The position numbers were made by a program, and so were the translations under genes. A stretch of 23,284 nucleotides of DNA from a virus: positions 1-23,284 of IMG/VR virus record IMGVR_UViG_3300017782_000234, one strand, 5' to 3'. This document shows positions 4,026-20,590 of the stretch, one piece after another (the stretch's first letter is position 1; each line of letters begins with the position of its first letter). The notes under the pieces were generated by a model that made no database searches, was not told where the DNA came from, and saw only the letters and a program-made list of their open reading frames with translations.

Positions 4026-4268
4026 CTACTTGCCCTCGGGGCGCTTGGCCAGGCCTTGCGCGGCCAGCAGCTCGGCCACGTCGTCGACGTGCAGGCAGTC
4101 GCACAAGCAGGCGTAGTCCACGACGCCACGCTTGTCCACGATGGAGCCGTTGCAATAGTCGTTGCCGGGAACGGCATCGACGAGCCAGCCGAAGGCGTCG
4201 ATCTTGCCGCCGGCGAGTCGGATGATCTTGTCGCCGTTCTTGGCCTCGCGGCCGTTTCGGTAGTGCAT
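4026..4268 (-). CDS. Small conserved phage protein (80 aa)
   Basis: The product begins MHYRNGREAKNGDKIIRLAGG and looks like a small beta-barrel or SH3-like fold at its N-terminus (GDKIIR...GKIDAFGWLVDA), followed by a Cys-containing segment (DYACLCDCLHVDDVAELLAAQ). An AAAGGA ribosome site precedes the ATG; it is flanked by 6-bp inverted arms, CAGTTC (4271-4276) and GAACTG (4284-4289), that could partly mask it. Similar small proteins occur among phage head genes without assigned function. The three Cys residues within the YACLCDC region could bind metal, which is speculation. It ends just before a double hairpin and terminator. Confidence 0.7.
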   Translation of the reverse strand: MHYRNGREAKNGDKIIRLAGGKIDAFGWLVDAVPGNDYCNGSIVDKRGVVDYACLCDCLHVDDVAELLAAQGLAKRPEGK

Positions 4269-4321: not shown

Positions 4322-6031
4322 TTACTGCTTCTCGATGCTGGCCGCGCCGAGCTTGCCGACCACAGCGACGGTGGATGCACCCGCAAAGTTCAGGTACAGC
4401 TGGAAGCCGAAGCTGGTGGCGCCATCGCTGGGGACCACGATGTCTTCGCTCACGAAGGTGATCGTCTCGTCAGCCGCACCGTACTCGGCCGAAGTGGTCG
4501 CATTGGGCAGGATGATTCCAGGCTGTGGGTTCTGCGTGCCGCCCTGGAAGTAGAAGCCGGCCAAGATGCCCTTGACGTTGGCCGTCGCCGTGCTGGAGAG
4601 AGCGAGCTGAAAGATCATGCGCAGCTTGTCACCCGCCGCGAATCGAGCGTTGGTGATGTTGCTGGCGAAATTGATGATGAAGTTGTCGCTTGCGCCGCCA
4701 GCCTTGACCGTGAACTGCAGGTCGTTGCCCTTGCCGTCAGCCCGCGCCGCGCCGACCACGGCAAAGGTGCCGGTGCCGCTGGTGTTCGTCGCATAGACCG
4801 TGTAGCCCTGCGGACAGGTGCCCGTCACCGGAGCGTTGATGCTGCCGCCTGTGGCGTTCCAGGGCGCAAAGTCCAGAATGTTGCGGCTGAGGTTGTTGGC
4901 GCCGTAGTTGTCGACGTTGGACTGCACCAGCAGCGAAGGTGCCAGCCAGCCCGGCGAGAGCTGGTCCCAAATGGCCTTGGCGATCAGGTTCGCGCCGGCC
5001 GGGGTCGGGTGCACGCCGTCTGTTGCGATGAGATTCGGCAGCGGGTAGTTGCCCGTCGCGTTGGTGGCGTCGATCAGGTATTTGCCCGCGTCAGCGAATC
5101 GAATTCCGGGGTTGACGCTGCAATACGCACGCAGCAGCCGGTTGTAGCGCACGGCCTCGGCGCGATTGGTCGCCGTGCCGCCGCTGACCCACGGGCTGGC
5201 GCCGACGATCACGACCAGCAGGCCGGCGGCGCGGGCCTGGGCCGCCATCCACGTCACATCCGCGTACACCGCATCTGCGGTGCGGCCGGCGATGGCGAAG
5301 TCGTTGTAGCCGAACAGCAGGATCAGCAGCTTGGCAGAAGGGGCCTTCGCCAGCTCGGCCAGGAAGCGCGTGCGGCCGTCTGCCGCTGTCTGGCCCGGTG
5401 CGCCGCCGTTGTGTACGAAGCGGATGGAGCCGCCCGCATTGCTCTTGAGCCGCATGAAGTAGCCGTTGTCGGTCTGCGACATGCGGTTGATCACCGACAT
5501 CGGCTTCTTGGTCGTCGCGTTCGACAGACCGTCGATGTTGGTCGTGCTGCCGTTCGCGCCGATTGATGCGTAGCTCAGCGTATTGGCGTCGATGTAGGTG
5601 ACCGGCGCATTCACCGCGTTGTACGAGGTGTCTGCGAAATTGCAGAACGTGGCCAGCATGCCCGAGGCCAGGCCGTGACTCGCGGCCGTGACGGTGACGA
5701 CGTTGCTGGTGCGGGTCGCCGCCGTGATGACACCATTCGCGTTGCCGCGCACGGTGAAGCTGTCGCCGAACGCGATGACATCCACCACTCCCGTGGCCGG
5801 CTGGTTCCCAGCCGCTGACAAGGCAGTCAAAAGCGCAGGCGTCCTGTTCTGCTTTTCCGCGTCCTGCGGGGTGATGGACAGCGGCGCGACCGTGTTGCTG
5901 AGCTGCGCCCAGCCACCGCCGAGATCCGCAGTGGCAAGAGCGGCCAGGGCGACGGCATCGTTGACGGTCTGGGTCGAGCCGATCGGGTAGCCGTAGGGGT
6001 TGCTCGCGCTCGTAATGAATATCTTCGGCAT
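4322..6031 (-). CDS. SGNH/GDSL-family hydrolase, virion-associated esterase candidate (569 aa)
   Basis: The SGNH blocks are readable: block I FGDSFT with nucleophile Ser91, block II Gly near 209-213 (NGGAPGQ), block III GYND with Asn243, and block V DGVHP with Asp338 and His341. All catalytic residues are present, so it is probably an active esterase or deacetylase. Residues about 100-165 between blocks I and II are an insertion resembling a beta-domain common in phage tail proteins (TSNVVTVTAASHGLASG). Residues 1-80 form a separate N-terminal part; 370-569 are a beta-rich region that could bind carbohydrate. It lies directly between portal and scaffold genes, an odd place for a receptor-degrading enzyme, and starts one base after the portal stop. 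It may be carried in the virion and act on host polysaccharide; the substrate is unknown. Confidence 0.85.
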   Translation of the reverse strand: MPKIFITSASNPYGYPIGSTQTVNDAVALAALATADLGGGWAQLSNTVAPLSITPQDAEKQNRTPALLTALSAAGNQPATGVVDVIAFGDSFTVRGNANGVITAATRTSNVVTVTAASHGLASGMLATFCNFADTSYNAVNAPVTYIDANTLSYASIGANGSTTNIDGLSNATTKKPMSVINRMSQTDNGYFMRLKSNAGGSIRFVHNGGAPGQTAADGRTRFLAELAKAPSAKLLILLFGYNDFAIAGRTADAVYADVTWMAAQARAAGLLVVIVGASPWVSGGTATNRAEAVRYNRLLRAYCSVNPGIRFADAGKYLIDATNATGNYPLPNLIATDGVHPTPAGANLIAKAIWDQLSPGWLAPSLLVQSNVDNYGANNLSRNILDFAPWNATGGSINAPVTGTCPQGYTVYATNTSGTGTFAVVGAARADGKGNDLQFTVKAGGASDNFIINFASNITNARFAAGDKLRMIFQLALSSTATANVKGILAGFYFQGGTQNPQPGIILPNATTSAEYGAADETITFVSEDIVVPSDGATSFGFQLYLNFAGASTVAVVGKLGAASIEKQ

Positions 6032-7514: not shown

Positions 7515-8798
7515 TCAGCGGCCCACGTGGGGCACATGGGCGGCGTGCGTGGCGACCGGCTTGGTCACCGGCCAGCGGTTGTGCAGGAAGTAGCCAGCCG
7601 CGTCGTTGGTGTGATCGTGGCCAGTGGTCTTGTCGGGCTCGCCGTGGTCGTCGTAGGGCTGCTGTTCCAACGACGCCGTGAACTCGTGGCAGGCGTCGGT
7701 GTTGACACGCAGCCGGCGCTCGCCGAGGCCGTTGAGCACCAGCGCGTTGACGCTGTTGACGCGGTCCTTGACTCGCGGGTTGTGGCTGGGCGCGCGAACG
7801 GTGAAGCCGGCGCCCTGCAGGATGGTCAGGTCGGACACCGAGGCGCCCTTGCTGCTGGTGTTTTGGCCGGCGGCGTCGGGGTAGACAGTGACGCTGTGGC
7901 CATGCTCCTTGAAGCGCTCGTTCAGCAGGCGCGCCATGGTGGGCGTGTCGCGGACCTTCACCAGCTCAGCCACGGCGTGGGGCTGATCGTCGCGCACGAC
8001 GAAGACCACCGCGGCCATCTTGTTGACGTTGAAGTCCATGCCGACCTGCAGCGGCTCGCCGGGCAGGATCTGCGTCGGCGAGTGGTTGAGCTTGCGGTCG
8101 AAGTCCGGGTAGACCGTGCCGCTGGCCAGGTTGACGAACCGGCCCTCGAGATAGGCCTCGATGAGCTGCGGCGGGTAGCTCGCGCGCAACGTCTCGATGT
8201 AGTCGGCCGGCAGGAACGGGTTGGTGCGCGTCGGCGCCTGCACCATCTCGTAGCCGGCCTTCTTGTTCTTCACCCACGTCTCGTAGGCGAATCGGAAGCC
8301 CTCGGGCGTCGTGTAGGCGCTGACCCGGTTGAAGGGGTTGTTGACACCGCGCGGCCGCTGCCGGTTGCGGGCGATGATCTTGCGCCAGGCCAGCGTGGCC
8401 TGGTCCTGCTTGAGCGTGTCGATCTCGTCGACGTGCGCCCGGTAGCTCTCGTAGCCGATGATGCGCGCCGGGTTGTCCAGCGTGCGCATGACGAAGTCGG
8501 CGCAGCTGCCCGACGACGTGTAGATGATGTTCTCGGTCTTGTTGTACCGATAGCGGATGCCGAGGTCGGTCAGCCTCTCCTCCATCCGCGGCGCCAGGAT
8601 CAGGCGCACGAGGTCGTAGGTCGGCTCGTAGAGCGCGATCATGGCGCTGGGCGCCTGCAGCGCGTCGCGCGTCGCGCACAGCGTCAGGGCCTCGGTCTTG
8701 CCAGTGCCGAAGCCGCCGCAGAACAGCGGGTACTTGGCGTCGAGCTGGAAGAACCGGGCCTGAGGCTCGGTCATCGTGACATCAAGAACGCGTCCCAT
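7515..8798 (-). CDS. terL: Terminase large subunit (427 aa)
   Basis: This is the DNA-packaging motor and nuclease. The ATPase domain has a Walker A, GGFGTGKT (28-35), and a Walker B with catalytic acid, VDEID (123-127). The C-terminal nuclease domain shows the three acidic clusters expected of terminases: MDFN (Asp255), YPDAAGQ (Asp308) and HDHTNDAAGYF (Asp395/Asp399). Length and motif spacing are normal and no interruption is seen. I keep the ATG at 8798; an in-frame ATG at 8774 (MTEPQARFF) is an alternative, since neither has a strong ribosome site. It overlaps the end of the small-subunit gene by 17 bp and is followed by the portal gene. Confidence 0.95.
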   Translation of the reverse strand: MGRVLDVTMTEPQARFFQLDAKYPLFCGGFGTGKTEALTLCATRDALQAPSAMIALYEPTYDLVRLILAPRMEERLTDLGIRYRYNKTENIIYTSSGSCADFVMRTLDNPARIIGYESYRAHVDEIDTLKQDQATLAWRKIIARNRQRPRGVNNPFNRVSAYTTPEGFRFAYETWVKNKKAGYEMVQAPTRTNPFLPADYIETLRASYPPQLIEAYLEGRFVNLASGTVYPDFDRKLNHSPTQILPGEPLQVGMDFNVNKMAAVVFVVRDDQPHAVAELVKVRDTPTMARLLNERFKEHGHSVTVYPDAAGQNTSSKGASVSDLTILQGAGFTVRAPSHNPRVKDRVNSVNALVLNGLGERRLRVNTDACHEFTASLEQQPYDDHGEPDKTTGHDHTNDAAGYFLHNRWPVTKPVATHAAHVPHVGR

Positions 8799-14628: not shown

Positions 14629-14889
14629 TCAGGCCGCCTTGGCGTGGGTCTGGGGACCGCTCGGCGCGGCGTCCTGATCGACGGAGGCGTAGCGCTCCGG
14701 GTAGAGGATTTGCAGCTCGGTCAGTTCACCCTCGAACTGATTGGCCAAGCGCTCGGCCAGCTCCAGCGATGGAACCTGGACGCCGCGCTCAATGCGGCTG
14801 AGATTGCCGGGATCAATGCCCGTGGCAGTCGAGACCTGAACGATCGTCAGTCCGTGGCGCTCTCGCGCCAGTCTCAATGGTGTTTTCAT
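14629..14889 (-). CDS. Cro-like XRE-family repressor (86 aa)
   Basis: Residues 5-58 form a classic helix-turn-helix of the XRE/HTH_3 type: LRLARERHGLTIVQVSTATG, then IDPGNLSRIERGVQVPSLEL and AERLANQF. There is no peptidase domain, so it is the short antagonist rather than the main repressor. It is transcribed divergently from the CI-like gene across a 107-base gap containing three operators, the position of lambda cro. An AGAGG ribosome site precedes the ATG at 14889. Its recognition segment (PGNLSRIERG) closely resembles that of the CI-like protein (VGNLSRLERG), consistent with both binding the same sites. Confidence 0.9.
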   Translation of the reverse strand: MKTPLRLARERHGLTIVQVSTATGIDPGNLSRIERGVQVPSLELAERLANQFEGELTELQILYPERYASVDQDAAPSGPQTHAKAA

Positions 14890-14901: not shown

Positions 14902-14931
14902 TTGGCAACAAATGCGCTGTACGCATATTAC
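14902..14931 (+). promoter_or_regulatory. Candidate repressor-maintenance promoter (PRM-like)
   Basis: TTGGCA (14902-14907, five of six matches to a -35 box) and TATTAC (14926-14931, four of six to a -10 box) are separated by 18 bases. The operator at 14912-14926 fills the spacer, so repressor bound there would shut off its own gene. Transcription would start about 60 bases before the repressor ATG. This is a pattern call; other starts are possible. Confidence 0.42.
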
Positions 14932-14974
14932 GCGAGGCTGCGGAAATGCGCAACGCGCTTTGCGCTTGACGCAA
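14912..14974. promoter_or_regulatory. Right operator region, three 15-bp sites (OR-like)
   Basis: Three sites fit the form [AT]TGCG-N5-CGCA[AT]. They are ATGCGCTGTACGCAT at 14912-14926 (perfect arms), ATGCGCAACGCGCTT at 14946-14960 (two mismatches in the right arm) and TTGCGCTTGACGCAA at 14960-14974 (perfect arms). They lie between the Cro-like and CI-like genes and overlap both candidate promoters. The same motif recurs three times at 17291-17352. They are the best candidates for the binding sites of the two XRE proteins. Confidence 0.85.
14925..14953 (-). promoter_or_regulatory. Leftward early promoter (PR-like)
   Basis: On the minus strand TTGCGC (14953-14948) and TAATAT (14930-14925) are separated by 17 bases. 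The -35 box lies within the middle operator and the -10 box runs into the operator at 14912-14926 (TAATATGCG). The promoter points to the Cro-like gene 36 bases away and the whole replication operon. The rightward promoter at 17297 has the same -10 box and the same 17-base spacing. Confidence 0.72.
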
Positions 14975-14996
14975 TTCGCCGGGGAAACTGGCAGCC

Positions 14997-15626
14997 ATGA
15001 ACATCGGCGAGACCATCCGGCGCATCCGCAAGGGCAGGCACATGACCCTGCTCGAGGTGGCGAACATCATCGAGAGCGATGTCGGAAATCTGTCCCGCCT
15101 GGAGCGCGGCAAGCAGGGCTACAGCCCAGAGCTGCTGGAGCGCCTAGCAGACGCGCTCGGCGTGAAGGTGCGCGATTTTTTCGACTCGGACGACAACGCC
15201 CAGGAGTTCTTCGAGCATGCCGTCATTCCGGCCGGCCAAGTTCCGCTCATCTCGTGGGTCCAGGCCGGCGAGTGGTGCCAGGCCCATGACCCCATGCCAC
15301 TTGGGCACGCCGAGGAATGGCTACCTTGCCCGACCAAGCACAGTTCAAGCACCTTTGCGCTGAGAGTTGTTGGTGACAGCATGGACGGCCCCGGTGGCTA
15401 CCGAGAAGGCGAAATCGTTTTCGTCGACCCGGAGATTGCGGCAATGCCGAACCGCGATGTAGTCGCTCGCACGCCCGACGGCAAGGTGACCTTCAAGCGT
15501 TTGAAGGAGGATTCGGAGGGGCGCTATCTTCTGGCCTTGAATCCAGCCTGGCCAGATCGTGTAATCCGCTGCCCCGAAGGCACGCTGATCTGCGGCGTGG
15601 TCATCGGCTCGTTTGTTCCGAGGTGA
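14997..15626 (+). CDS. CI/LexA-type cleavable phage repressor (209 aa)
   Basis: This is the probable lysogeny repressor. Residues 1-60 form an XRE helix-turn-helix (TIRRIRKGRHMTLLEVANII, then SDVGNLSRLERGKQGYSPEL). Residues about 80-209 are a LexA/S24 peptidase-type domain: the Ala90-Gly91 cleavage bond (VQAGEW), catalytic Ser128 in GDSMDGP, and Lys167 in VTFKRLK. All autocleavage residues are present, so it should be inactivated in a RecA-dependent SOS response. It is divergent from the Cro-like gene across three operators. Four plus-strand genes follow before a terminator, so they are likely transcribed with it in the prophage state. Confidence 0.94.
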   Translation: MNIGETIRRIRKGRHMTLLEVANIIESDVGNLSRLERGKQGYSPELLERLADALGVKVRDFFDSDDNAQEFFEHAVIPAGQVPLISWVQAGEWCQAHDPMPLGHAEEWLPCPTKHSSSTFALRVVGDSMDGPGGYREGEIVFVDPEIAAMPNRDVVARTPDGKVTFKRLKEDSEGRYLLALNPAWPDRVIRCPEGTLICGVVIGSFVPR

Positions 15627-15629
15627 ACC

Positions 15630-16124
15630 ATGGCAAGTACGCAGCCCTCGAAAACCTTCAAGATCACGGTGGCCGCAGTGATTATCGCGGGGGCCATTGC
15701 GTGGCTGGAAACTAGACCTGGCGAAGGCGCGGAGGCAGCAAAAAAAATCACGGCCCAAGCAGAGAACAACCCCCGCAGCCCTATTCAACCAGCGGCCGAC
15801 ATTGGCCAGCAAAGACTGCTACCAGAAATGACCATCCGCTTCACCAAAGGCACGTATGCGTGTCTTACGCGCGATGCACTTCAGGAATTCATGGCTCATG
15901 GAGCAATCGGCGAGGCGACGAAACTCAACGCGATGGTGAACTCCAAGACTAACCCTACGGGACCATGCGTTTTCATTGATCCAAGCCAAGTGGTGAAGGT
16001 TGTTCACGTCGAATACAACATTCCTGACAATGCCGATCTGGGTCTACTTGAGATCGTCGGGACCGGGAGCCAGTCATCCAATGGGGCGTGGGCACTCTCG
16101 GTCGGCGCCGAACCCGCTCCATGA
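15630..16124 (+). CDS. Membrane-anchored protein cotranscribed with the repressor (164 aa)
   Basis: The ATG lies three bases after the repressor stop, implying one transcript. Residues 10-28 (FKITVAAVIIAGAIAWLET) form a single N-terminal membrane anchor, so residues 30-164 would be periplasmic. That part holds a polar linker and a compact domain (MTIRFTKGTYACLTRDALQE and CVFIDPSQVVKVVHVEYNIP) with Cys78 and Cys113, which could form a disulphide. The gene is less GC-rich than the phage core and has an A8 run at 15740-15747. Expression in the lysogen plus a periplasmic domain suits superinfection exclusion or lysogenic conversion, but no family is recognised. Confidence 0.75.
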   Translation: MASTQPSKTFKITVAAVIIAGAIAWLETRPGEGAEAAKKITAQAENNPRSPIQPAADIGQQRLLPEMTIRFTKGTYACLTRDALQEFMAHGAIGEATKLNAMVNSKTNPTGPCVFIDPSQVVKVVHVEYNIPDNADLGLLEIVGTGSQSSNGAWALSVGAEPAP

Positions 16125-16408
16125 TCCGCGCCCTCGCGCTCGCTACAGCTTTCTCTCTGCTCTCAGTGCCGGCCGAAGCGAAGGGGCACCGATCGCATTC
16201 GGCGACCGCCGCCTTCAAGCGTCAGCACCCGTGCCCCAGCACAGGCAAGCCTCGCGGCGCGTGTCCAGGCTGGGTGATCGACCACGTCGTCCCTCTATGC
16301 GCTGGTGGCCGCGATGACCCGGCCAACATGCAGTGGCAGACCATGGCTGACGCCAAGGCCAAGGATCGGGAAGAGGCGAAGCAGTGCCGGAAATTGCGCC
16401 ATTCCTGA
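16121..16408 (+). CDS. Exported HNH-nuclease-like protein (95 aa)
   Basis: The ATG at 16121 overlaps the preceding stop (ATGA). Residues 1-20 (MIRALALATAFSLLSVPAEA) look like a cleavable signal peptide with an Ala-x-Ala end. The mature part has the HNH pattern GACPGWVIDHVVPLCAGGRD with Asp54-His55, then PANMQWQT with Asn69 and AKAKDREE with a Lys in the last position, as in many small HNH proteins. Cys38, Cys48, Cys60 and Cys89 could hold zinc or form disulphides. An exported nuclease would act in the periplasm, perhaps on incoming DNA, which fits its place in the repressor-linked cassette. Nuclease activity and target are inferred. Confidence 0.82.
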   Translation: MIRALALATAFSLLSVPAEAKGHRSHSATAAFKRQHPCPSTGKPRGACPGWVIDHVVPLCAGGRDDPANMQWQTMADAKAKDREEAKQCRKLRHS

Positions 16409-16445
16409 AACAACACCCATCAAAGTACTGTGGCAAACTTGACCC

Positions 16446-16724
16446 ATGCCTCTCGTCCTGCTCGATTTCAACGACTCTCCGCGCGATTCGTTTCGCCGCG
16501 GGGTCACGAAGGGCTTGGCTGCTCCGCTGATGCTGTTCGCATCCAACGCCGTCGACTTGAAGTTGCCGCCCCCCGTCTCGCTTCCGAAGGTGCTGCCTGT
16601 CAAAGTGCCAGAGAGCTTGCGCGCGCTGACCGACGCCCAGCGGATTGGCATGGATTTCAACGCAGCGGTTGGCCGGCATGAAGAAGCAGGCCAGAACGCC
16701 GCCCGGGACTCTGAAGCCCTCTGA
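16446..16724 (+). CDS. Unknown small protein of the repressor-linked cassette (92 aa)
   Basis: The product begins MPLVLLDFNDSPRDSFRRGV and has a Pro-rich middle (LKLPPPVSLPKVLPVKVPES) and a helical end (LTDAQRIGMDFNAAVGRHEE). There is no good ribosome site before the ATG at 16446. The end overlaps the DUF2335 gene by 47 bp in another frame, which suggests coupling. Base composition is less GC-rich than in the phage core. No known domain is seen; a cytoplasmic partner of the DUF2335 membrane protein is one possibility. The open frame and natural amino-acid make-up are the evidence for a real gene. Confidence 0.6.
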   Translation: MPLVLLDFNDSPRDSFRRGVTKGLAAPLMLFASNAVDLKLPPPVSLPKVLPVKVPESLRALTDAQRIGMDFNAAVGRHEEAGQNAARDSEAL

Positions 16725-17226
16725 GGCGGCCGCACGCGAGGCGTTTGGCCCTATAGCGCAACAGCAAGTCGTGACCCTGCAGGAGCAGAGCGTCACGGTT
16801 CATGTCCAGCTTCCTCCACCAGCCCTCTTGGCTGAATACGAACGTGTGCAAGCTGGGACGATGGACCTGTTCATACGCTGGAGCGAAGAAGAACAGGCCC
16901 ATCGCCGACGCCAGGATGAGCTGGCTTTGACGGCCAACATCGAGGCACAACGTCGACAGCTCTCCGTGGCTGAATCGCAGCTTGAAGCCAACAAAGCCAT
17001 TGCGACTTACCAGGCCGAAACCGTCCGCTCAAGCGACCGTTCCGGTCAGATTTTGGGTTGGTCTCTTTGTGCCGCCGCCATGGGGCTTGCTGTGTACCTC
17101 TCGCTCCAGGGACACGAGGCTGTAGCGGCAGTCCTCGCTGCGCTCCCAACTGCAGCAGTCATCCAGTCGTTTCGGACCCTCACACGGCAAGAAGCAAGGA
17201 CGCCGGAAGCATCACCGAAGAAGTAG
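16678..17226 (+). CDS. DUF2335 membrane protein (182 aa)
   Basis: I start it at the ATG at 16678 (MKKQARTPPGTLKPSEAAAR) rather than at 16645, where the extra residues fit no family. The layout is that of DUF2335: a Pro-rich entry (LPPPALLAEYERVQAGTMDL), a long charged helix with FIRWSEEEQAHRRRQDELAL, and two hydrophobic spans at about 124-144 and 147-163 joined by LSLQGHEAV. The N-terminus and coiled coil would be cytoplasmic. DUF2335 proteins occur widely in phages and bacteria and have no firm function; a membrane-sensing or exclusion role is speculation. It is the last gene before an intrinsic terminator. Confidence 0.82.
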   Translation: MKKQARTPPGTLKPSEAAAREAFGPIAQQQVVTLQEQSVTVHVQLPPPALLAEYERVQAGTMDLFIRWSEEEQAHRRRQDELALTANIEAQRRQLSVAESQLEANKAIATYQAETVRSSDRSGQILGWSLCAAAMGLAVYLSLQGHEAVAAVLAALPTAAVIQSFRTLTRQEARTPEASPKK

Positions 17227-17248
17227 ACCGTCACACACCATCATCCAT

Positions 17249-17273
17249 AAGCCCGCCCAGCGCGGGCTTTTTT
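17249..17273 (+). terminator. Intrinsic terminator of the repressor operon
   Basis: AAGCCCGC (17249-17256) pairs with GCGGGCTT (17262-17269) around the loop CCAGC, and T continues to 17273. This is a perfect 8-bp stem with a T-run on the plus strand. It lies 23 bases after the DUF2335 stop and about 20 bases before the left operator cluster, so it insulates the lysogenic transcript from the recombination operon. Confidence 0.92.
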
Positions 17274-17290
17274 GCGCCCAACCAAGACAA

Positions 17291-17352
17291 ATGCGCTTGA
17301 CGCATTTTATTTCCGGCCCTAATATGCGTTCAACGCTTTGCGCAACACGCAT
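17291..17352. promoter_or_regulatory. Left operator region, three 15-bp sites (OL-like)
   Basis: The sites are ATGCGCTTGACGCAT at 17291-17305 (perfect arms), ATGCGTTCAACGCTT at 17324-17338 (two mismatches in the right arm) and TTGCGCAACACGCAT at 17338-17352. Spacing mirrors the right cluster: two sites share one base at their border and the third stands apart. No XRE repressor gene is adjacent, so control must come from the repressor 2 kb away. Confidence 0.85.
17297..17325 (+). promoter_or_regulatory. Rightward early promoter (PL-like)
   Basis: TTGACG (17297-17302, five of six to consensus) and TAATAT (17320-17325, four of six) are 17 bases apart. The -35 box lies inside the first operator and the -10 box merges into the second (TAATATGCG), so bound repressor would block it. 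It drives the operon starting with the 133-aa gene at 17368. Confidence 0.82.
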
Positions 17353-17367
17353 TTTACGGAGCCTGAA

Positions 17368-17769
17368 ATGTCCTTGTCCCGTACCCTCTACGCCTGCATC
17401 GACAACCCCATGGTCACCGGACGGCCCCGCCACGCCGCCCGCATCGGGCGGCGCGACGCTCTGCTGCAGCTTGCCAAGGGCACGCTGGTCGTCGAGTACA
17501 TGCGGGCCTGCTTCGAGCCGCTGAAGACGATCTCCACCCCGGCCTTCGTGGACAGCGAGACGCCGCCCGCACTGCGCTTGATGCGTCATGAGACGCGGCT
17601 GATCGACGTGCTGTCGGACCAGATGGCCGGCATTCACAGCGATCGCCTGTGGGTCGAGCTCGTCGGCCTGCTGACCAAGACCGCTGAAGGCTGCGAATGG
17701 CTGCGCCAGCGCGCTCTGGAGCACGCCGAATACCACGCCGAGGCTGAGGCCTACGGAGACGCCGAATGA
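17368..17769 (+). CDS. First gene of the recombination operon, unknown phage protein (133 aa)
   Basis: The ATG at 17368 has GGAG six bases upstream and begins MSLSRTLYACIDNPMVTGRP. An in-frame ATG at 17338 lies inside the operators, upstream of the expected leader, and is unlikely. The protein is mostly helical (DALLQLAKGTLVVEYMRACF, then LIDVLSDQMAGIHSDRLWVE and CEWLRQRALEHAEYHAEAEA). It has no membrane segment or known motif. In lambda the first PL gene is the antiterminator N, but this protein lacks an Arg-rich N-terminus, so that comparison is not supported. Its stop overlaps the next start by 4 bp. Confidence 0.78.
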   Translation: MSLSRTLYACIDNPMVTGRPRHAARIGRRDALLQLAKGTLVVEYMRACFEPLKTISTPAFVDSETPPALRLMRHETRLIDVLSDQMAGIHSDRLWVELVGLLTKTAEGCEWLRQRALEHAEYHAEAEAYGDAE

Positions 17770-17909
17770 GCGCCCGTCCCATCGTCCCGGGCCGCGCGTA
17801 CCGCGTGCGCGGCTGCGGCCTTGACCTGGTGGTATTGGCCACTCACCCCTGCGACGCGATCTGCGCGGCGCTCGACCTTCTGGAAAACCTCAACCGGAGC
17901 ATTCGATGA
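17766..17909 (+). CDS. Very small phage protein (47 aa)
   Basis: ATG at 17766 overlaps the preceding stop (ATGA), and its own stop at 17907-17909 overlaps the next ATG (17906) in the same way. The product starts MSARPIVPGRAYRVRGCGLD and continues LVVLATHPCDAICAALDLLE, a compact strand-strand-helix pattern with three Cys. The double 4-bp overlap is the main evidence that it is translated. No function is recognised. Small peptides in this operon position often modulate host nucleases or replication, but nothing here shows that. Confidence 0.7.
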   Translation: MSARPIVPGRAYRVRGCGLDLVVLATHPCDAICAALDLLENLNRSIR

Positions 17910-18649
17910 CCACTGAAATCAAGACTGTGAGCCTGCTCGACCAACTGCGCGCCTCTCGCGCCATCTACGAGAAGGCTCTGGAGAACCTCGAGAACCTGAG
18001 CGACAGCGCCCTGTCGCGGATCTTGGACCTTACGGGCAGAGCATCCACCGTGGACCGCGTGCTCGGCATCGCCAGCGCATCCACCGTGGCCCGCGTGCTC
18101 GGCATCGCCAGCGACGACACCGTGGCCCGCGTGCTCGGCATCGCCAGCGCATCCACCGTGGACCGCGTGCTCGGCATCGCCAGCGCATCCACCGTGGACC
18201 GCGTGCTCGGCATCGCCAGCGACGACACCGTGGACCGCGTGCTCGGCATCGCCAGCGACGACACCGTGGACCGCGTGCTCGGCATCGCCAGCGCATCCAC
18301 CGTGGCCCGCGTGCTCGGCATCGCCAGCGACGACACCGTGGACCGCATCACCTTCGTCAAGGCCCTCCAGGTTCCGGTCGTCCCGGATCTGGACAAACGC
18401 GTCGCGGAGGCGGCCGAGGCCGGCAATCTGGACATGAGCACCTGGCACTGCGGCACGACGCACTGCCGCGCCGGCTGGGCCGTGGTGTTCGGCGGAGAAG
18501 CCGGGGCAAAGCTGGAGAAAGAACTGGGTAGCGAGATGGCCGGCCGCCTGATCTACGAAGCCAGCACCGGCCGACCGGCGCCGGACTTCTTCGCCGGCCA
18601 GGACAGCGCCCTGGAAGACATCCGCCGTTGCGCTGCGGAGGCCCAATGA
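17906..18649 (+). CDS. Phage protein with a 12-residue tandem-repeat array and a conserved C-terminal domain (247 aa)
   Basis: Residues 1-45 are helical (LRASRAIYEKALENLENLSD). Residues 46-147 consist of eight near-identical 12-residue units plus a partial ninth, of the form [AS/DD]-T-V-[D/A]-R-V-L-G-I-A-S. Degenerate units flank the array: SDSALSRILDLTG before it and SDDTVDRITFVKAL after it. Each unit is amphipathic, with Val, Leu, Ile and Ala on one face, so a stacked helical solenoid is likely. Residues about 172-247 (STWHCGTTHCRAGWAVVFGG, then EMAGRLIYEASTGRPAPDFF) resemble a domain seen in many phage hypothetical proteins; the Cys/His pairs may bind metal. It is coupled by 4-bp overlaps to genes on both sides. 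A DNA- or protein-binding scaffold for recombination is possible; function is unknown. Confidence 0.85.
   Translation: MTTEIKTVSLLDQLRASRAIYEKALENLENLSDSALSRILDLTGRASTVDRVLGIASASTVARVLGIASDDTVARVLGIASASTVDRVLGIASASTVDRVLGIASDDTVDRVLGIASDDTVDRVLGIASASTVARVLGIASDDTVDRITFVKALQVPVVPDLDKRVAEAAEAGNLDMSTWHCGTTHCRAGWAVVFGGEAGAKLEKELGSEMAGRLIYEASTGRPAPDFFAGQDSALEDIRRCAAEAQ
18041..18346 (+). repeat. 36-bp tandem array, 8.5 copies, in frame
   Basis: Eight full units (18041-18328) and half of a ninth follow with no spacers. Units differ at only two places: the first six bases are GCATCC or GACGAC, and one later base makes GAC or GCC. All other bases are identical, including third positions, which indicates recent copying or gene conversion. 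Because 36 is divisible by three, gain or loss of units keeps the reading frame. Confidence 0.95.
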
Positions 18650-19473
18650 ACGCCCCCGAGCGCAGCGCCTTCATGCGCACCATCATCCCCATCCGCGCCA
18701 GCTCGCTGGCCGAGCTGTTCGACTGCCCTGCAAGGTGGGAAGCGAAGCACATCCTGGGCATGCGCGGCCCGCGCAGCGCCGCCGCGCAGCTGGGCACGGC
18801 GGTGCACGCCGGCACCGCCCTCTTCGACCAGTCCCACCTGCCGGGCGGAACTCCCTTGAGCGCCGATGACGCCGCCGGCGCTGTCGTGGACGCGATCCAC
18901 AAGCCCGAAGAAGAGGTCGATTGGGAAGAAACCGCGCCGCGCGACGCCGAGCGCATCGCGCTGGCGCTGCACACCCGCTACTGCGGAGAAATTGCCCCGC
19001 AGCAGGTCTACCGCGGCGTCGAGGTGAAGTGCGAGAGCCTGGAGCTGCCCGACCTTGGCATTGCGCTGACCGGAACGACCGACCGCGTGCGCGAGGTCGG
19101 CGGCAGCTTGGGCATCACCGACCTGAAGACCGGCGGCCGCGCCGTGGGCGCCGATGGCCGCGCCGTGACGCAGGGCCACGCCGTGCAACTCGGCGTCTAC
19201 GAGCTGCTGGCAGAGCACGCCATGGGGCTGCACATCACCGCGCCGGCGCAGATCGTCGGTATGAACACCGGCAAGACACCGGCAGCACAGCGCGTCGGCA
19301 CCGGCGAAGTCCCCAACGCTCGCGCGGCGCTGATCGGCACCGAGGAATCTCCCGGCCTGCTCGAACACGCCTCGCGACTGATCCACAGCGGCGCCTTCTA
19401 CGGCAACAGCAAGAGCTTCCTGTGCTCGGCGAAGTATTGCCCGCGTCACCCCGTCTGCACCTTCAAGGCCTGA
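18646..19473 (+). CDS. PD-(D/E)XK exonuclease partner of RecT, probable Fe-S cluster type (275 aa)
   Basis: The enzyme should resect double-stranded ends to give single strands for RecT. The nuclease core is visible: LGTAVHAG with His54, LTGTTDRVR with Asp146, GITDLKTGG with Asp159-x-Lys161, and the QLGVYELL motif (Gln181, Tyr185), as in RecB/Cas4-like nucleases. Cys27 in FDCPARW plus Cys260, Cys265 and Cys271 near the end (CSAKYCPRHPVC) match the one-plus-three Cys arrangement that holds a 4Fe-4S cluster in AddB and Cas4. It starts with a 4-bp overlap at 18646 and is followed by RecT. The fold is sure; the cluster is inferred. Confidence 0.88.
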   Translation: MNAPERSAFMRTIIPIRASSLAELFDCPARWEAKHILGMRGPRSAAAQLGTAVHAGTALFDQSHLPGGTPLSADDAAGAVVDAIHKPEEEVDWEETAPRDAERIALALHTRYCGEIAPQQVYRGVEVKCESLELPDLGIALTGTTDRVREVGGSLGITDLKTGGRAVGADGRAVTQGHAVQLGVYELLAEHAMGLHITAPAQIVGMNTGKTPAAQRVGTGEVPNARAALIGTEESPGLLEHASRLIHSGAFYGNSKSFLCSAKYCPRHPVCTFKA

Positions 19474-19501: not shown

Positions 19502-20590
19502 ATGGCAACCGCACAGATCGCCGACCTGCGCCAGCAGTCCGTCGCCACCCGGCCGCTGGCCGACATGAAGCCCAAAGAACAAATCGCCTACCTGCTGCAG
19601 CAGAAGAAGGGCGAGCTCGCCAAGATGCTGCCCAAGACGCTGAGCATCGAGCGACTGCTCAAGGTCGCGCAGATCGCCGCGACGACCACGCCGGCCCTGG
19701 CCAAGTGCGACGTGCCGTCGCTGGTCGGCGCCATCGGCCAGTGCGCCCAGATGGGCCTGGAGCCCAACACCGTGCTGGGCCACGCCTACCTGGTGCCCTT
19801 CAACACCAAGCGCAAGGACGCCAACGGCAACGAACGCTGGGTCAACAGCGTGCAGGTCATCATCGGCTACAAGGGCCTGATCGACCTGGCGCGCCGCTCG
19901 GGCCAGATCGTGAGCATTGCCGCGCACGAGGTCTGCGAGAACGACCACTTCGAGCTGGTCTACGGCCTCGACGAGAAGCTGAACCACACGCCCGCCATGG
20001 GCGCGCGCGGCCACGTCATCGGCTTCTACGCCGTGGCCAAGCTGAAGGACGGCGGCTACAGCTTCGAGTTCATGAGCGTGCACCAGGTCGAAGAGATCAT
20101 GGTCGGCACCCAGAGCAAGGGCAAGTACGGCCCCTGGAAAGAGCACTTCGTCGAGATGGGCCGCAAGACGGTCATTCGCCGCCTGGCCAAATACCTGCCG
20201 CTGTCCATCGAGTTCCAGACCGCCGTGGCCCTGGACAACCAGGCCGAAGCCGGCAAGGACCAGAAGCTCGACACCATCGACGGCGACTTCATGGTGGTCC
20301 AGGACGACGACGCGCCGCAGCACGCCGGCGAGATCGATGCCGACACGGGCGAGATCCGCGGAACGCTCAGCGGCGACGCCAAGGTGGGCTCGCCGGACTC
20401 GGCGCACAAGCACGCTGACGACGATGTCGGCCGCAGCGCGGATGACTGGCGGCCCAGCCCCGAAGAAGAGGCCGCGATCCTCGCGCGCGAGCGCGCCGAG
20501 GCCGGCACCGATTCGCAGTCCAGCTCGCAGGCCACGCCCGCTCGCACCGCCGCCGCGCGCCGCACACGGCCGGGCGTGAACGTCGAGTAA
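19502..20590 (+). CDS. recT: RecT-family single-strand annealing protein (362 aa)
   Basis: RecT binds single-stranded DNA and anneals complementary strands during phage recombination. The family core spans about residues 30-245: LSIERLLKVAQIAATTTPAL, AIGQCAQMGLEPNTVLGHAY, LVPF, VQVIIGYKGLIDLARRSGQI, HFELVYGLDEKLNH, and KTVIRRLAKYLPLS. Residues 250-362 are an acidic, low-complexity tail rich in Asp, Glu and Ala with Ser/Gln/Thr near the end, longer than in E. coli RecT and perhaps a docking site for partners. A GAGAGGAAA ribosome site precedes the ATG. It follows the exonuclease gene by 28 bases, the expected exonuclease-annealase pair. Confidence 0.95.
   Translation: MATAQIADLRQQSVATRPLADMKPKEQIAYLLQQKKGELAKMLPKTLSIERLLKVAQIAATTTPALAKCDVPSLVGAIGQCAQMGLEPNTVLGHAYLVPFNTKRKDANGNERWVNSVQVIIGYKGLIDLARRSGQIVSIAAHEVCENDHFELVYGLDEKLNHTPAMGARGHVIGFYAVAKLKDGGYSFEFMSVHQVEEIMVGTQSKGKYGPWKEHFVEMGRKTVIRRLAKYLPLSIEFQTAVALDNQAEAGKDQKLDTIDGDFMVVQDDDAPQHAGEIDADTGEIRGTLSGDAKVGSPDSAHKHADDDVGRSADDWRPSPEEEAAILARERAEAGTDSQSSSQATPARTAAARRTRPGVNVE

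Follow-up and report, generated by a model that had tools for sequence, protein, structure and literature searches.

Genes and operator sites at the locus

The window, meaning the whole stretch of DNA that was analysed, is a virus record of 23,284 bp that may be a fragment. Within it, divergent cro- and cI-like genes encoding HTH proteins are separated by a first cluster of palindromic sites, and a second cluster lies beyond cI at an early promoter; we call these clusters OR and OL (Table 1). To the left of OR, cro is followed by more leftward genes. CI joins an HTH domain to an S24 self-cleavage domain with its Ala-Gly, Ser and Lys residues; G91, S128 and K167 are invariant among 25 family CIs and A90 is kept in at least 90% of them, which is consistent with SOS cleavage of CI. 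In a PDB sequence search the C-terminal domain of CI matched lambda CI and UmuD, and Cro had no meaningful relative. The DUF2335 membrane protein (16645-17226) and a small weakly HNH-matching protein (16088-16408) encoded between cI and OL occupy the position of rexAB in lambda and are candidates for exclusion functions.

Table 1. Features of the region from cro to the pL operon, in window coordinates
Feature	Coordinates	Strand	Basis or remark
Cro-like repressor gene, 86 aa, HTH_3, helix IDPGNLSRIERG	14629..14889	-	Pfam HTH_3 E=6e-12
OR single operator ATGCGCTGTACGCAT, perfect, merges with pR -10	14912..14926	.	site scan
pR -10 box TAATAT	14925..14930	-	direct reading; TA[AT]TAT conserved in 81 distinct ORs
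OR composite operator: ATGCGCAACGCGCTT (14946-14960) and TTGCGCTTGACGCAA (14960-14974)	14946..14974	+	base 14960 in common, centres 14 bp apart
pR -35 box TTGCGC, 17 bp from -10	14948..14953 (+ strand coordinates)	-	TTGCGC in 81/81 distinct d34 ORs
Predicted pRM -35 box TTGCGC, within composite operator	14960..14965	+	family alignment
Predicted pRM -10 GGAAAC, weak in window phage, 8 nt before cI ATG	14983..14988	+	position from family alignment
CI repressor gene, 209 aa, HTH_3 and Peptidase_S24, helix SDVGNLSRLERG, A90-G91, S128, K167	14997..15626	+	Pfam S24 E=4e-23
Block between cI and OL: small ORFs, weak HNH-endonuclease match, DUF2335 membrane protein	15630..17226	+	
Terminator-like hairpin then T6, between cI-side block and OL	17249..17269	+	direct reading; RNA fold -14.2 kcal/mol
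OL single operator ATGCGCTTGACGCAT, contains pL -35	17291..17305	.	site scan, comparison with relatives
pL -35 box TTGACG	17297..17302	+	promoter scan
pL -10 box TAATAT, 17 bp from -35, merges into composite	17320..17325	+	promoter scan
OL composite operator: ATGCGTTCAACGCTT (17324-17338) and TTGCGCAACACGCAT (17338-17352)	17324..17352	+	base 17338 in common
pL operon first gene	17368..17769	+	leads to exonuclease 18628-19473, RecT 19502-20590

An earlier note on this DNA had described three sites of the form WTGCGN5CGCAW in each cluster, two of them sharing a border base and one of that pair having a degenerate right arm, and all six sites were recovered where it had placed them. Four are perfect matches, namely both single operators and the second site of each composite; the first site of each composite has one mismatch, its right arm reading CGCTT in both cases. 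A scan with the consensus, as the note had proposed, found no perfect match outside the two clusters in the entire 23,284 bp; the remaining one-mismatch sites of the window are scattered. The four perfect sites compare with means of 0.34 in 400 first-order and 0.19 in 400 third-order Markov simulations, and a three-site cluster, of which the window has two, arose in 0/800 simulations.

The two clusters are oppositely oriented relative to their own promoters, the fused pair lying at the -35 box of pR but at the -10 box of pL, and therefore the centre-to-centre spacing is 34 + 14 bp in OR and 33 + 14 bp in OL. Both hexamers of pR and of pL lie inside or touch an operator, and at each promoter, as had been noted, the -35 box sits in one operator and TAATAT merges into another.

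The OR triad, its promoters and OL across the family

Used alone as a query against viral contigs, the 29-bp composite recovered at least 119 stretches, most of which carry the composite together with a third site, nearly always perfect, that precedes it by exactly 34 or 33 bp. The OR layout of the family is thus a TGCG-N5-CGCA site, an interval of 34 bp (33 in some) and the 29-bp composite WTGCGN5CGCTTTGCGN5CGCAW, and wherever flanks are included this triad lies between homologues of the window's Cro and CI, with the cro homologue in the equivalent position. Among the matches listed we counted 98 triads, excluded four that probably read the same ORs in reverse orientation and, with identical sequences merged, retained 94 distinct triads; the CGCTT arm is kept in 92/94 of these listed triads, though the pattern left that arm free. 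Among the matches listed, the pattern with the free arm also brought in L253, which is closely related to the window, and 10 more loci (L254-L263). Matches to CGCAATGCG/CGCATTGCG in L003, L004, L064 and L068 were treated as unrelated, since they lack both CI/Cro-like HTH genes and a third perfect site at the distance typical of the family.

Exact triads are also present in 17 bacterial genome records, which come from Paraburkholderia, Enterobacter, Erwinia, Pantoea, Tatumella, Mixta, Yersinia, Aeromonas, Hafnia, Atlantibacter and a betaproteobacterial MAG. Among named phages, Cronobacter phage ENT47670 and Yersinia phage vB_YenM_30.14 carry the triad exactly, and Serratia phage vB_SspM_BZS1 and Morganella phage IME1369_01 with one mismatch. 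Compared pairwise, the CIs of 25 representatives (one of which comes from a weaker d32 match) show a median of 34% identity overall and 52% over the first 65 residues. We acknowledge that most family members were gathered via the operator itself, so that the conservation seen in the family is partly ascertained and only sets gathered otherwise are free of this bias. A diverged triad that keeps the 34-bp spacing (TTGCGTGATGAGCAT ... TTGCGCAAGTTGATTTGCTTAACGCGCAA) occurs at 4042-4104 of mEp460 and adjoins a CI with a DAANISR helix, possibly an intermediate specificity.

In 81 distinct d34 ORs among the matches listed, pR reads TTGCGC-17-TA[AT]TAT, with TTGCGC invariant and the fourth base of the -10 box conserved at 95%. 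The family alignment of the same 81 ORs places a second, divergent promoter, TTGCGN-17-ttNaAT, which starts within the composite and which we predict to be pRM. The cI ATG lies 6-8 nt past the pRM -10 in 84/92 switches and a ribosome-binding-like sequence precedes it in 5/92, which together imply that cI mRNA from the predicted pRM would be leaderless. Counting against this assignment, the pRM -10 of the window is poor, and another promoter-like pair, TTGGCA (14902) and CATATT, also faces cI.

Downstream of cI, 77/80 switches with enough flank carry WTGCGNTTGACGCAW, an operator containing the pL -35, followed by a -10 box. A second perfect OL site stands at +15 in 49 switches, and in others near +23/24 and about +46. 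The OR-like OL composite of the window, at +33, is found only in the window phage and its close relatives; the earlier proposal that both clusters share one three-site design is therefore true of these phages and fails for the wider family, in which OL differs. Across their complete genomes, ENT47670, vB_YenM_30.14 and vB_SspM_BZS1 have perfect sites exclusively at OR and OL; IME1369_01 has one perfect site away from them.

Probable recognition of the sites by CI and Cro

CI and Cro of the window have the recognition helix GNLSR-x-ERG in common, SDVGNLSRLERG and IDPGNLSRIERG matching at its core, and in triad phages CI mostly carries SDVGN[LIV]SR and Cro mostly D-x-GNLSR. To obtain a sample free of the operator, we collected CIs by their C-terminal domain alone, without regard to helix or operator; the whole domain gave a profile too diverse for searching, a three-member alignment was used instead, and CIs with unalignable HTH regions were omitted. 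Two or more upstream sites were present for 4/5 CIs with an [AGS]N[LIV]SR helix and for 0/22 others, or for 4/5 and 0/14 when only unique helices are counted (p = 0.001), the class having been widened after inspection of the data. Under the narrower GN[LIV]SR class, fixed beforehand, sites accompany 3/4 CIs in the class and 1/23 outside it. Operators and recognition helices thus covary in this sample, the relationship that the earlier note had suggested looking for.

Salmonella phage Fels-1 is a counterexample. It resembles the window in gene order and in the GNxSR helices of both CI and Cro, yet it has no TGCG site; visual inspection shows palindromes of the ATGT...ACAT type at the corresponding -10 (4699-4812), a type of operator absent from the window, where the sites are TGCG-N5-CGCA. 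Because Fels-1 combines the same helix class with different operators, the helix by itself is not enough to set specificity. In the window and its relatives, the common recognition helix is consistent with CI and Cro acting on the same sites, as they would, with opposite preference, cooperative binding and OR-OL looping, in a lambda-type switch.

A lambda-type reading of the switch

In lambda, cro and cI are divergent, two operator clusters about 2.4 kb apart flank cI and accessory genes, pL leads to recombination genes, CI is self-cleaving and PRM yields a leaderless cI mRNA. The window shares each of these traits, the leaderless mRNA and the self-cleavage being predictions, in a gene arrangement that is the mirror image of lambda's. 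It differs in its operators: lambda has 17-bp sites, separate and 23-24 bp apart, whereas the window family has a 13-bp TGCG-N5-CGCA core, two sites fused at 14 bp centre to centre and, unlike lambda, both divergent -35 boxes within the composite. The 23-24 bp spacing of three separate operators is lambda's own trait rather than that of every member of the type. Judged from gene content and sequence, the two clusters are very probably OR and OL of a lambda-type lysis-lysogeny switch in which CI and Cro act on common sites. The earlier suggestion of one repressor specificity for both early operons gains support from the helix common to CI and Cro, the gene context of the triads and the second operator at the pL -35 in 77/80 relatives.

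In such a switch, CI dimers, with Cro competing, would recognize the 13-bp palindrome TGCG-N5-CGCA through the GNLSR helix that both proteins carry. At OR, the -35 of pR would be covered by dimers on the fused pair and its -10 by a dimer on the single site, and occupancy of the inner site would also govern pRM, whose predicted -35 lies inside the composite; at OL, CI and Cro would cover both the -35 and the -10 of pL. In a lysogen, CI would silence the cro-side and recombination operons together, and because CI has the residues of RecA-stimulated self-cleavage (Ala-Gly, Ser and Lys), DNA damage would be expected to release both.

Three other readings bear on parts of this scheme. The same operators may be used with OR and OL repressed independently and no part for looping by a CI octamer, a reading whose probability we put just short of even. 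It fits the OR-OL distances, which run from 798 to 3203 bp (median 916, in switches with enough flank) with no signal of helical phasing (Rayleigh p about 0.65-0.85, uninformative at such lengths), and the variable architecture of OL (tandem +15, 23/24, about 46, or +33) beside a fixed OR. Long-range looping does not require phasing, however, and OL lies downstream of cI in 77/80 relatives, as in lambda, where looping occurs; OR-OL looping is plausible. A second alternative, that the TGCG sites are bound by CI or by Cro but not by both, with different DNA serving the remaining protein, would suit the C-terminal-sampled set, which probes CI only, and some Cro homologues with DTGNLSR (L135-L138) that have degenerate sites only, but the near-identical recognition helices of both proteins in triad phages make it unlikely. 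Least probable by far, and with nothing found in its favour, is that the sites serve a host regulator or other process and lie near cI and cro by coincidence: they overlay the early promoters exactly, triads are flanked by cro- and cI-like genes both in phage contigs and in the genomes of several bacterial genera, and the sites are associated with the CI helix, so that gene context and helix association lead us to reject this reading.

Within the lambda-type scheme, we tentatively propose, as a possibility somewhat below even, that phages infecting beta- and gammaproteobacteria have preserved the single TGCG-N5-CGCA specificity and its fixed 62-63 bp OR layout as a module with hardly any change, despite CI divergence to about 34% identity. 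With one specificity conserved in this way, mutual immunity may be widespread among these phages. As part of the same proposal, the invariant CGCTT would be a functional device and not decay, setting which of two mutually interfering dimer positions fills and so toggling pR versus pRM. Lambdoid immunity regions are usually seen as fast-changing, whereas here 90-odd distinct switches repeat one operator sequence in one exact layout, forming a comparative data set for two repressors on overlapping sites. The triad family should help in reading CI/Cro specificity from sequence, and the triad may predict prophage immunity groups across genera and serve as a signature for finding the switch in unannotated viral contigs.

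Switches of the lambda type are familiar; the recognition sequence and the fused double site may be new. The earlier note had thought the motif undescribed, and within limited literature coverage we found no printed description of it, six of the operator strings having no match as text in papers. Among the 10 of 22 matches listed for overlapping operators (lambda, TP901-1, phi11, 933W and others), none names this motif in its title or abstract. The vB_SspM_BZS1 paper makes no mention of operators, and no operator description was found for ENT47670, vB_YenM_30.14 or IME1369_01. These four phages have a window-like OR triad and a pL-embedded OL site, and their OL consists of two sites 15 bp apart, in contrast to the OR-like composite of the window. 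In the telomere phages N15, PY54 and phiKO2, CI/CB and Cro are likewise accompanied by OR, of which N15 has three and PY54 one, and PY54 has a leaderless repressor mRNA and a Cro that binds a single 16-bp OR3 site (PMC4488713); their operators differ from those of the window.

Elsewhere in the window, a 36-bp tandem array of 8.6 copies (18037-18346) lies inside the ORF at 17906-18649, a predicted early protein, and encodes 12-residue repeats such as STVDRVLGIASA. The large terminase (7515-8798) is closest among phage records to that of Xanthomonas phage Kintu, at 64% identity, a weak hint of the host group.
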